60,840 nt of DNA from Planctomycetota bacterium (GTDB lineage: Bacteria > Planctomycetota > Phycisphaerae > WQYP01): NCBI GenBank assembly GCA_021810145.1, contig JAJZJL010000007.1, positions 1 through 60,840 of the forward strand. Reading direction: 5' to 3'. The notes under the pieces are model-generated. The model did no database searches, was not told where the DNA came from, and saw nothing but the letters and a program-made list of their open reading frames with translations. A program made the translations under genes and the position numbers. Position 1 is the first letter of the stretch; each line of letters starts with the position of its first letter. Of the stretch, positions 56,456 to 60,840 are shown one piece after another.

Positions 56456-57754
56456 TCATTGTAGAGATTCCAGATGCTTTTGAAAGTGATTGCCCCACAA
56501 ACACCCTCCAGCCGCAGAATGGAAATGCCTGCGGGCAATCGTGCGAATCAGGGTTGACATTTTACGCGGTGGCTTGCAGTGCCAATCTGTTGAGCACGCC
56601 GGCCCGTGCCAGATTCTGCCAATTTCTATCATTGGCTTTCCCGGCAACCGGGACCTTGTCGGCTTGTGGCGCACGGCCATCCATTGCGATTTCTAACACC
56701 AGGACGTTAACCCGCATCACCGCCCACAAATCAAATCGCCCGTTGCTCGTTGCTCGTTGCTTGTTAATAGTTGATGGTTGCCCCCTGTATCCGCGGCATC
56801 CGCGCTATCCGCGGCCCTCTTTCGCCCTCGAAGTAATAGTGCCGGCCCAACCCGCTGGTGCCGCGGATAGCGTGGATGCAGTGCATTGAGCACCGAGCAT
56901 TTGGCATTTAGCACCAAGGTCTTGGAACATGAATCTTCACCTGCCGGCCCCGCCTGCCACCCCGCCGCGCCGGGGACCACCGAACATCTTCCACTAACTA
57001 CTGGCCATCGGTCATTGCTCATTGCCTCCCGGCGCACCGGCATGTGTCCCCCGTATCCGCGTTATCCGTGAAACCGGTGGCCCTTCGTCTTCATGGAAGC
57101 CACGGAAACGATAAAACACCGCCCCGGCGCGCACGGGGTAAACCTCCTGCGCGGATAGCGCGGATTGTTCAGGAATTGGGCGAAGCATGTCTTACACTTG
57201 AAGCGCCAAAGCCAGTACCGTGGATGTCCCGCAACGGCGCAACACCACGCCAGTAGTGTGGAGGGGTGCGCCCCGTATCCGTGGCATCCGTTTCACCCGT
57301 GGTCCGTCGCATAAGACTTCCAAGCGCAATCCCGCACCGGTTGAAGATCCCGGTCGCTGTCCGCTACCGGGAAGTCAACCCACATGACCACTGATTCCAC
57401 GGATTCAACGGATAAGGTAGCGAAAGGTGGTCTGCTTTTTACTTTCGGGCAATCGGCCCGGGGTTTGGCATTAGGTAGATCTGGATTTTATTACAATATG
57501 CGCCAGTGGTTGCAGAATTGGTCAATAAATTCAGTAACGGGTGCGGCGGGTCTGGTGGATTGAGTCCACAGGCAAATCTTTGCGTGCCGCAGAGAACTGG
57601 ACGGATTGTGGTACGGATGCAAGCGGGGTAAGTTGCGGTCAAGAGCTTAAAATGTAACGCTATTTTCAGGTAGCCGGGAAACAATTGACAAAGAGGCGGA
57701 AGAGGCTGGCGGAGGACCTGGTGAGTTTGCAAGGAACAACGGTGGACGGACCGC
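56456..57754. other. 1.3-kb repeat-rich spacer
   Basis: No gene seen. It holds the left 225-bp repeat (56783-57007), several runs of ATCCGCG/CGCGGAT (about 56790-56815, 57050-57070, 57275-57300) and CCGGCGCACCGG-type palindromes (near 57030). Confidence 0.6.
56783..57007. repeat. 225-bp direct repeat, left copy
   Basis: About 97% identical by eye to 60616-60840. It includes the ATCCGCG run and a unique-looking 180-bp block (AAGTAATAGTGCCGGCCCAA...). The two copies flank the BlaI/BlaR1 cassette. Confidence 0.9.
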
Positions 57755-57783
57755 TTGACAGATGTTGCTTACGAATGTAATCT
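57755..57783 (+). promoter_or_regulatory. Promoter of the blaI-like gene
   Basis: TTGACA (57755-57760) and TAATCT (57778-57783) are 17 bp apart. The first operator overlaps the -10. Confidence 0.8.
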
Positions 57784-57804
57784 ATAAATCGCTTACAAAT
57801 GTAA
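57769..57804. promoter_or_regulatory. Two BlaI/MecI-type operators
   Basis: TTACGAATGTAA (57769-57780) and TTACAAATGTAA (57793-57804), spaced 24 bp, match the TTACAnnTGTAA core of BlaI operators. One covers the -10 and the other the transcription start. Confidence 0.85.
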
Positions 57805-57819
57805 TCAAAAAGGACGGTG

Positions 57820-58200
57820 ATGAAAAACATTCCTAAGATTTCCGAAGCGGAGTGGGAAGTCATGAAGGTCCTGTGGGCTAAAGGTCCCTGCTCGGCCCGT
57901 GATATCATCCTGGCCCTAACGCAAGGTGATCCGGATTGGCATCCAAAGACGGTTAAGACGTTTCTGGGGCGACTGGTTGCCAAAAAGGCTATTGCGTTCG
58001 AAAGGGAGGGGCGAGCGTACCTTTATCATCCTTTGGCCAATCGGGCGGAATGCGTTTCGAAGGCCAGCGAAAACTTTTTAAAGCGGGTCTTCGACGGCGC
58101 GCTGAGGCCGATGCTTGCACACTTTGTGGAGAACAGGAAGCTTTCCGCCTCGGAAATTCGGGAACTAAGGCGGTTGCTTGAACAAAAGGGGGAACCATGA
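57820..58200 (+). CDS. blaI: BlaI/MecI-family repressor
   Basis: The 126-aa winged-helix protein opens ISEAEWEVMKVLWAKGPCSARDI and contains DWHPKTVKTFLGRLVAKKAIAFEREGR, the BlaI/MecI recognition and wing region, then a helical dimerisation C-terminus. The family is proteolysed when the partner BlaR1 senses its signal. ATG 57820 has an AAAGGA site; a GTG 3 bp earlier is also possible. The stop overlaps the next start by ATGA. Confidence 0.93.
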   Translation: MKNIPKISEAEWEVMKVLWAKGPCSARDIILALTQGDPDWHPKTVKTFLGRLVAKKAIAFEREGRAYLYHPLANRAECVSKASENFLKRVFDGALRPMLAHFVENRKLSASEIRELRRLLEQKGEP

Positions 58201-59993
58201 ACGCGTTACCCGCACCACTGACAGCCTTTTTTTTCTGCCTGCTGCGGATCTCATTGCAGGCCGATATTTTGATTTTGCTGGTGTTAGTGGCGCAGTGGCT
58301 GTTTCGCAACCAGCTCTCTCCGAAATGGCGCTACGCGCTTTGGCTGTTGGTGGTGTTGCGTCTGGCGTTGCCGTGGTCGTTGCCTAACCCAGTCAGCGCC
58401 GTTGGCTTTTTTCAGCATCATCCGCTGGTTGCCCCGGGTATTGCGTCAAACTCGGCGACTACCAGGCCCGATCACACCGGGGCGTACAAACAATCCGTCC
58501 CACCGGGTGGCGGCGACGCGATGGTTTCGTTGGCAACACAGACCGCTACGACCGCATTCGCGTGGCTCGAATTCAGGCAGAACTGGTTGTTCGGCGCGTG
58601 GCTGCTCGGTGCAGTGGCGCTTCTGGCTCGGCTTCTGGCATCCGGGATCCGGATGCGGTGGGGAACCCGGCGCAAGCGGCCCTTAACAGACGCGGTGGTA
58701 CTGGATTTGCTCGAGGACTGCAAACAAGAGATGAGAATTTACACCCCGTTGGCGATTATCGAGACCGATACCGCTACGAGTCCCGCTTTGTATGGATTCA
58801 TCCGGCCCCGCCTGCTCCTGCCAGCCGGGTTGAGGAAGGCTTTTTCGATATCGGAGCTGCGTCATGTGTTTTTGCACGAGCTGGGCCATATCAAACGCGG
58901 CGACATCCCCGTGAACTGGTTGGCGACGTTGCTGTTGATCCTGAACTGGTTCAATCCTCTGGTTTGGTATGCCTTCCATCGAATGCAGGCTGACCGAGAA
59001 TTGGCGTGTGATGCGCTGGCTTTGTCTTACAGCGGCGATCAGGAAAGGCAGGCCTATGGGCGCACGGTAATTAAGGCGCTGGAATTGTTTAGCCTTTCGG
59101 CCGTTTCGCCGGGCATGGCTGGAATACTGGAAAATAGGAACCAAATGAAAGCGAGGATTCGTATGATCAGACAATTCAATAAATCGGACGATTGGCCAGT
59201 GGCGGCGGTGGCGTTATTCATTAGCCTTGCACTGGTTGGGTTCACCGGTACTCAATCCAGCGCGGGTGCCGCGCCGAAAACCGCCGATCTGCACAACTCC
59301 GTCCCCAGGGCCCCTGCTGCGGCACGGGGCAGGCCGACGGTCGTCTCTACCTCGCCGCAGGTGGGGGCAATGGATGTGGATCCGGCCATTACCAGGATCA
59401 CTGTCACATTCAGTCGGGACATGGAGAGGGGATTTTCATGGACCGGCGGCGGCCCGGATTTCCCCCCAAGTCCTGCTGGACAACGCCCATATTGGATTAA
59501 TAAACGCACCTGTATTTTACCCGTCAAGCTTCAGGCCGCCCACTACTACCGGGTGGGCATCAATTCCGACGGCTACAGGAACTTTCGCGGCGTGGACGGT
59601 GCGGCGGTAAGGCCGACGGCTATTTATTTCACCACCCGAGGTGCTGGCCGACGATTACAACGTATGGCCGCCAAACCAGTGATCGTGGCACTTGTTCCGA
59701 AAAACGGAGCGCGGAACGTGAACCCGAATCTGGCGGAAATCCGCGTTACCTTCAGTGTTCCGATGGCGGCAGGATTTTCATGGACAGGCGGAGGCCCCGA
59801 CTTCCCAACGGTTCCCAATGGGAGGAGGCCATACTGGAACCAGAATCACGAGACCTGCGTACTTCCGGTGAAGCTGGAGCCGGGCCACACGTATCGTTTG
59901 GGCCTCAACAGTCGATCCTACAAAAATTTCCAGAGCAGCGGCGGCGTGCCCCTGGTGCCGGTTCTCTGGAGTTTCACAACAAGGAAGCGGTAA
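58197..59993 (+). CDS. M56/BlaR1-like membrane protease with two Ig-like domains
   Basis: The 598-aa protein has transmembrane helices near residues 5-30, 40-65 and ~120-150, an M56 metallopeptidase domain with FLHELGHIKRGD (HExxH) and NWFNPLVWYAFHRMQADRELACDALAL, and a last helix (AAVALFISLALVGFTG, ~345). Instead of a penicillin-binding sensor the C-terminus has two Ig-like (Big_5/SbsA type) repeats, each with ITVTFSRDM or IRVTFSVPM, FSWTGGGPDFP, RPYW and CxLPVKL. It should cleave BlaI on stimulation; the signal is unlikely to be a beta-lactam. Confidence 0.86.
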   Translation: MNALPAPLTAFFFCLLRISLQADILILLVLVAQWLFRNQLSPKWRYALWLLVVLRLALPWSLPNPVSAVGFFQHHPLVAPGIASNSATTRPDHTGAYKQSVPPGGGDAMVSLATQTATTAFAWLEFRQNWLFGAWLLGAVALLARLLASGIRMRWGTRRKRPLTDAVVLDLLEDCKQEMRIYTPLAIIETDTATSPALYGFIRPRLLLPAGLRKAFSISELRHVFLHELGHIKRGDIPVNWLATLLLILNWFNPLVWYAFHRMQADRELACDALALSYSGDQERQAYGRTVIKALELFSLSAVSPGMAGILENRNQMKARIRMIRQFNKSDDWPVAAVALFISLALVGFTGTQSSAGAAPKTADLHNSVPRAPAAARGRPTVVSTSPQVGAMDVDPAITRITVTFSRDMERGFSWTGGGPDFPPSPAGQRPYWINKRTCILPVKLQAAHYYRVGINSDGYRNFRGVDGAAVRPTAIYFTTRGAGRRLQRMAAKPVIVALVPKNGARNVNPNLAEIRVTFSVPMAAGFSWTGGGPDFPTVPNGRRPYWNQNHETCVLPVKLEPGHTYRLGLNSRSYKNFQSSGGVPLVPVLWSFTTRKR

Positions 59994-60039
59994 TGCTTGT
60001 CGCAGGCTCATGTGATTTTGACTGAAAATGGAGCGAATG

Positions 60040-60468
60040 ATGAAAACCCGGCCAACCTCGGTGACGGTGATCTGTTGGATTTGGGTTGTCGTGGGGACAA
60101 CGGCGATGATCTTCGTTCCACTAGCTCTAATGAACGGCCCGGCACCCCGCGCTTTGATGGATCGTGAAGTCCGCGCATTGGTCGCTGGTAATCTGCTTCC
60201 AGTGTCGGTCCAATGGGAAATAGGTTTCACAAAAATACTGGTGATACTTATCGCTGGCATTGCGATGCTGAGGGGACAAAACTGGGGCCGCCTTCTATTC
60301 ACAATCGTGGGTGCGGTCAACCTCGTGATCACGTTGGCAATGGCTCCTGCTGTCTACACGACAGCTCAAATTCAAGGCATTATCGTGTACGTCGTGGTCG
60401 TCTTCTTCCTTTTCCGCCCGAAGGCTAATGAGTATTTCAGCGGGTCCCGGAGGCAGACCGCTGTGTGA
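60040..60468 (+). CDS. Four-helix membrane protein
   Basis: From ATG 60040 (GGAG at 6 nt; ATG also at 60028 and 60037), 142 aa with about four hydrophobic helices (VTVICWIWVVVGTTAMIF, ILVILIAGIAMLRG, LFTIVGAVNLVITLAM, GIIVYVVVVFFLF). Resembles small uncharacterised membrane proteins. It sits 45 bp after the M56 gene and may share its transcript, making it a possible effector of the cassette. Confidence 0.65.
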   Translation: MKTRPTSVTVICWIWVVVGTTAMIFVPLALMNGPAPRALMDREVRALVAGNLLPVSVQWEIGFTKILVILIAGIAMLRGQNWGRLLFTIVGAVNLVITLAMAPAVYTTAQIQGIIVYVVVVFFLFRPKANEYFSGSRRQTAV

Positions 60469-60615
60469 CACAGACGGGCTTCCGTTTATAGGAAAATAAT
60501 CCGAACGGGGGCGGCGGGGTTAGTCGATTGGATCACTGTATCGGGAATCTCGAGCCTGGAACTTGGAATTTGGCATTTGAAGCCTCGCTCCGGCGCACCG
60601 TGATTGATTGCTCCT

Positions 60616-60840
60616 CCCCGTATCCGCATCATCCGCGCTATCCGCGGTCCTCTTTCGCCCTCGAAGTAATAGTGCCGGCCCAACCCGCTGGTGCCGCGGA
60701 TAGCGCGGATGCAGTGCATTGAGCACCGAGCACTTGGCATTTAGCACCAAGGTCTTGGAACATGAATCTTCACCTGCCGGCCCCGCCTGCCACCCCGCCG
60801 CGCCGGGGACCACCGAACATCTTCCACTAACTACTGGCCA
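60616..60840. repeat. 225-bp direct repeat, right copy
   Basis: About 97% identical to 56783-57007 and cut by the window end, so it may extend. Only a handful of mismatches, in the ATCCGCG run and near it. Confidence 0.9.

Follow-up and report, generated by a model that had tools for sequence, protein, structure and literature searches.

A Putative BlaI/BlaR1-Type Switch With a Tandem Ig-Like Outer Domain in a Planctomycetota Genome

Organization of the Locus

The window, meaning the whole stretch of 60,840 nucleotides analyzed here from a Planctomycetota bacterium, carries a compact two-gene unit of about 2.2 kb. The first gene encodes a BlaI/MecI-type repressor and the second a BlaR1-type receptor protease, and the ATG of the receptor gene overlaps the stop codon of blaI (58197 vs 58200). 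The features of the locus, all on the forward strand (+), are as follows.

57755–57783 (+): promoter of the blaI-receptor operon, read from the sequence (-35 TTGACA at 57755–57760, 17-nt spacer, -10 TAATCT at 57778–57783)
57769–57780 (+): candidate BlaI operator 1, TTACGAATGTAA, with one mismatch to TTACANNTGTAA, overlapping the -10 element
57793–57804 (+): candidate BlaI operator 2, TTACAAATGTAA, an exact match, 24 bp downstream of operator 1
57820–58200 (+): gene of the BlaI/MecI-type repressor, 126 aa (Penicillinase_R match; MecI/BlaI structures)
58197–59993 (+): gene of the BlaR1-type receptor protease, 598 aa (Pfam M56 and Big_5; structure model; fold match to S. aureus BlaR1)
58875–59012 (+): zinc protease motif region, HELGH at residues 227–231 and ELACD at residues 268–272, aligned to BlaR1 H201, H205, E242 and D246
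59196–59252 (+): last transmembrane helix, residues about 334–352 (hydropathy; helix in the model), joining the protease to the Ig pair
59334–59633 (+): first Big_5 Ig domain, residues about 380–479 (Pfam, domain alignment, model), with FSWTGGGPDFP at 413–423
59673–59987 (+): second Big_5 Ig domain, residues about 493–597 (Pfam best stretch 493–595, domain alignment, model), with FSWTGGGPDFP at 527–537
60028–60468 (+): predicted membrane protein 3' of the receptor gene, 146 aa if started at the first ATG and 142 aa if started at the one at 60040

Among 100 relatives searched for the receptor, three of the same family carry it in full (G017 with 72% identity, G006 and G002 with 57–58%), and in all three blaI lies upstream of the receptor and the promoter bears twin operators with a spacing of 23–24 bp. 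A fourth, G004, holds a C-terminal receptor fragment at a contig end. The named equivalents of the locus come from metagenome assemblies of Phycisphaerales and Planctomycetota. In G017 (L003, contig C12) the reading frame of the receptor changes near residue 63–72, either through an error of sequencing or through a real, recent lesion.

The first-pass annotation had described a three-gene cassette that included the membrane protein in its 142-aa form and held no antibiotic resistance gene. The latter point stands, and the former was given up. The product of 60028–60468 has no Pfam or NCBIfam assignment above cut-off, it found no match in any of the 60 relatives of its own search, and the genes 3' of the receptor in the relatives are different ones; the conserved cassette therefore consists of two genes. 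Direct repeats of 237 bp with 96% identity (56771–57007 and 60604–60840) flank the blaI-receptor segment. This repeat is a dispersed element with 54 matches in its own genome and short matches or none in the relatives, and the contig end falls within one of its copies.

The BlaI Repressor and Its Operators

The repressor is an ordinary member of its family, as had been proposed. The product of 57820–58200 matches Penicillinase_R with 124.3 bits (E=4.1e-36, Pfam) and the MecI structure 1sd6 with E=3.2e-23, and it is homologous over the whole length. The known cleavage position of BlaI/MecI proteins is N101-F102 (PMC9834060), which aligns to H101-F102 here with F102 kept, and so both the domain and the conserved cleavage position place the protein among the BlaI/MecI repressors.

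BlaI-type operators lie on the operon's own promoter, and the twin sites are kept in relatives, where they stand 23–24 bp apart (L032, L033, L034, L036 and L050). The -35 element, the 17-nt spacing and the -10 element are identical in L032, L033 and L034, with one or two changes in L036. The position of operator 1 is conserved in the relatives, the first site of L032 having two mismatches. The promoter overlap and the conserved twin sites together support direct autorepression.

A wider BlaI regulon, which would follow from operators in front of other genes, was sought as the annotation had advised and was rejected. In six genomes, the scan with TTACRNNTGTAA gave few further sites, fewer than the reversed-pattern control and none shared in context, and a one-mismatch scan with the extended operator pattern gave no additional target common to the genomes, so that outside the blaI promoter no site was shared by either the exact or the one-mismatch scan. 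In its own genome the one-mismatch scan returned 17 sites vs 7 in the control, a figure that includes both-strand palindrome counts and three hits in the blaI promoter. One lone operator site on G000:C47, some 120 nt in front of a gene of glycosidase type, proved to be without a counterpart. Degenerate BlaI targets may exist elsewhere.

The Protease Core of the Receptor

The receptor was proposed to hold a BlaR1-like protease core, and domain, residues and fold all bear this out. Peptidase_M56 covers residues 15–324 with E=2.2e-61 and 208 bits against a curated cut-off of 31 (Pfam), and both zinc motifs of the family, HExxH and ExxxD, are present. H201, H205, E242, D246, Y261 and R294 of BlaR1 align to H227, H231, E268, D272, Y287 and R320 of the receptor. 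The autocleavage site S283-F284 of BlaR1 aligns poorly, falling on G306-M307 within a gapped stretch, and F284 appears not to be kept. The model of the full receptor has a mean pLDDT of 79.5, and its best fold matches in the PDB are the cryo-EM structures of S. aureus BlaR1 (8exs, E 1.7e-10).

Hydropathy places helices near residues 13–31, 48–66, 131–149 and 334–352, and both Ig domains follow the last of these. In BlaR1, too, the sensor comes after the membrane part and protrudes from the cell (PMC9834060), and the helix layout with C-terminal Ig domains thus gives the same arrangement. The first outer loop (residues about 58–128) has a pLDDT below 50 at 61–107 and is variable in sequence among relatives. 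Taken together, the protease and the repressor look functional, and the receptor probably works like BlaR1. The name BlaR1 is not warranted, since the receptor scores 187.6 bits where the NCBIfam BlaR1 equivalog requires 400, and it has no penicillin sensor.

The Ig Pair as Outer Domain

In place of the penicillin sensor, the receptor carries a tandem Big_5 ectodomain, in agreement with the earlier proposal. Big_5 (PF13205) is matched in two stretches with E=8.2e-13 and 49.4 bits against a cut-off of 23.6. The pair is modelled by AlphaFold as beta-sandwiches with a mean pLDDT of 94, and it matches Ig domains in the PDB. FSWTGGGPDFP occurs exactly twice in the receptor, at about 59433–59465 and 59775–59807. 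This repetition is not due to chance, because both domains are kept in place and in sequence in the equivalent genes at 57–72% protein identity. None of the penicillin-binding motifs SxxK, SxN and KTG occurs in the 246-residue tail of the receptor, and Pfam finds no class D beta-lactamase-like sensor domain, as is typical of BlaR1 and MecR1, on the protein.

The best PDB matches of the Ig pair in Foldseek are the tandem domains of mycobacterial L,D-transpeptidases (E about 1e-6), which have been described as Big_5 (PMC3605043). The structures superpose loosely, with a TM of about 0.3 and an rmsd of 12 A, indicating a common fold and not a common function, and a PDB sequence search with the Big_5 subfamily gave no significant match. 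In the transpeptidase LdtMt2, a pocket between the catalytic domain and the second of the Big_5 domains has been reported to bind a peptidoglycan sugar and, weakly, beta-lactams (PMC9094749), and with the fold match this leaves room for a wall-related signal. The Ig pair is very basic in the window's clade (charge +18 to +19). This charge was considered as proof of an anionic ligand, an argument weakened by the related Limisphaerales pair (L036), which is not basic, and by other exported proteins encoded in the window that are basic as well.

Spread of the Domain and Apparent Exchange of Tails

The word FSWTGGGPDFP had been put forward as a mark of this sensor, with a search for homologues sharing it as the check. 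It is indeed present in each repeat and the search did find further M56 fusions; as a signature of M56 sensors it was rejected, since most of the 52 word-bearing loci in one genome-collection scan are not M56 proteins. These loci belong to Planctomycetota, Verrucomicrobiota, Lentisphaerae, Sumerlaeaceae and a few others, and the word marks a widespread Big_5 subfamily on many unrelated proteins. The domain occurs on M56 fusions (L032–L034, L036, L043, L050, L067 and L074), as free secreted pairs (L035, L041, L042 and L044) and fused to other proteins, such as an S41 peptidase (L045); it is common on proteins without a signalling part. Of 298 genomes sampled from the window's class, 88 match strongly, in most cases over one domain alone, and the whole pair is matched at M56-receptor length only in the window's family. 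G491, from the class to which L036 belongs, holds a further fusion of M56 with the pair.

Signalling proteins of three kinds carry the word-bearing Big_5 domain, namely M56 receptors, an ECF sigma factor and a Ser/Thr kinase. The Singulisphaera ECF sigma factor (L075:2954–4312) and the kinase (L023:1–1896) both carry it at the C-terminus after predicted membrane stretches, and this position favours a sensing role.

A tree built from 58 M56 cores gives good support to the four-receptor clade that includes the window's protein. This clade adjoins the Limisphaerales-type receptors L036 and L187 by a weakly supported join (90/64), and L043 has no resolved position. The four single-domain fusions fall at four separate places, three of them within well-supported groups whose nearest members lack Big_5. 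The sister proteins L006 and L050 have a common M56-DUF3887 front, and only L050 has Big_5; between matching flanks, Big_5 and an unrelated domain appear at the same place. Other M56 tails include LamG (L188), STN (L191), a WD40-like tail (L175), DUF3887 with TPR (L006) and a cyclase-like tail (L002). From these relationships, the sensors of M56 proteins look exchangeable, the Ig pair being one among many.

The cyclase-like tail belongs to the only other M56 protein of the window's own genome (G000:C55, 717 aa), where it resembles squalene-hopene cyclase. A second BlaI is encoded directly upstream, without a TTACANNTGTAA operator, and the protein is a candidate for another sensor swap. The Limisphaerales receptor (L036:1414–4315) has three Big_5 domains, and directly behind it lies a gene for a secreted Big_5 pair. 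This pair is 60% identical to receptor residues 309–530, from before the last helix onward, as if part of the receptor gene had been duplicated.

Comparison With Known Systems

The BlaR1-BlaI and MecR1-MecI systems of staphylococci and bacilli have in common with this locus the M56 core with its H-E-H-E-D residues, the BlaI partner, the paired promoter operators, the helix layout and the C-terminal outer domain. They differ in having a class D beta-lactamase-like sensor, whereas two Big_5 Ig domains are found here, and a beta-lactamase or PBP2a gene, neither of which is present here. Judged from its sequence, which shows the order of the genes, the domains, the catalytic residues, the operators and their conservation, the locus is a real and conserved variant of the BlaR1-BlaI switch.

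In cyanobacteria, PetP and PetR are likewise a BlaR1-family protease and a BlaI-family regulator that serve a non-beta-lactam signal (PMC7896320). They differ in responding to copper, controlling the copper-dependent swap between plastocyanin and cytochrome c6 through the targets petE and petJ, and no Ig pair is known from that account (PMC7896320). A new signal for such a pair is therefore not unprecedented. Other M56 proteins of Planctomycetota and Verrucomicrobiota have the same core, several with BlaI upstream, and differ in their tails. LdtMt2 also has two successive extracytoplasmic Big_5 Ig domains; there the pair precedes a YkuD catalytic domain, identity is about 16%, and the protein has no protease or signalling role. 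In the open-access literature searched, whose coverage is incomplete, no paper describing the M56 and Ig-pair architecture was found. What seems new here is the type of sensor and the modularity of the M56 core, BlaI/BlaR1-type pairs for other signals being known.

Proposed Mechanism and Alternatives

We favour, with a probability of roughly 0.7, a proteolytic switch of the BlaI/BlaR1 type whose sensor has been exchanged: the Ig pair would read an extracytoplasmic cue and induce mainly its own operon. From the operator position and homology, BlaI dimers on the two operators would repress the shared blaI-receptor promoter. The predicted topology puts the receptor's zinc protease inside the cell and, beyond the last helix, its two Big_5 Ig domains on the outside. 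By analogy with S. aureus BlaR1, a ligand at the Ig pair would cause a change that is relayed via the last helix and activates the protease, and BlaI would then be cut at the H101-F102 position, which would end repression. Since no conserved target besides the operon was found, induction would mainly raise the repressor and the receptor, plus any unrecognised or local targets. Unlike in BlaR1, the signal would not pass through covalent binding of a beta-lactam. As to the ligand, our guess is a polymer outside the cytoplasm, for instance peptidoglycan or some other glycan of the wall, prompted by the L,D-transpeptidase Big_5 match near the peptidoglycan-sugar pocket (PMC9094749) and by the basic pair in the window's clade. 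A surface protein is, also as a guess, nearly as likely. The signals suggested by the annotation, namely envelope stress, a polymer or a protein partner, are compatible with these findings. Counting against the favoured reading are the apparent loss of the autocleavage residue F284, the fold-only likeness to the transpeptidases, the charge of the Limisphaerales pair, which is not basic, the basic nature of other exported proteins of the window, and the frequent occurrence of the word-bearing domain on proteins that have no signalling part.

Tandem Ig domains are often protein binders, and it is a possible, if less probable, reading that the pair senses a protein and not a polymer, possibly by pairing with secreted Big_5-pair proteins. 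Pairs of this kind are commonly encoded as free secreted proteins (L035, L041, L042 and L044), and the receptor-like secreted pair of L036 is encoded directly behind its receptor. However, the window's own genome has no free pair, the receptor being the only match of the pair profile, and no conserved neighbour gene could encode a partner.

The Ig domains could also be an anchor instead of a sensor. A mere wall anchor or spacer, with the membrane helices or the first outer loop reading a metal, redox or membrane cue, seems unlikely to us; PetR/PetP show that the BlaI/BlaR1 family can serve a non-beta-lactam signal (PMC7896320), and the word-bearing domain also stands on proteins without a signalling part, but the first outer loop is poorly ordered in the model and variable, while the Ig pair is strongly conserved.

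More doubtful still is a closed circuit, in which the receptor would sense free Big_5-pair proteins, or the surface that they coat, like with like, and the main product would be the Ig ectodomain itself. If so, induction would add Ig domains to the cell surface, and a secreted pair of the L036 type would be a separated output arm.

Lastly, a sensor of beta-lactams or of beta-lactam damage, whose Ig pair would bind the drug or wall fragments without acylation, is very improbable: the fold similarity and the pocket reported in LdtMt2 (PMC9094749) speak for it, but that pocket requires catalytic-domain residues that the receptor lacks, penicillin-binding motifs are absent, the cassette holds no resistance gene, and the genomes scanned have no operator in common at any other gene.

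Significance

To our knowledge, BlaR1 has been studied almost solely as a penicillin sensor. With M56 cores bearing many outer domains in the Planctomycetota and Verrucomicrobiota loci gathered here, the sensing of penicillin seems to be one of several uses to which a general proteolytic receptor is put. The Ig-pair system keeps the catalytic residues and the operators of the model system, and it should be testable in laboratory hosts.
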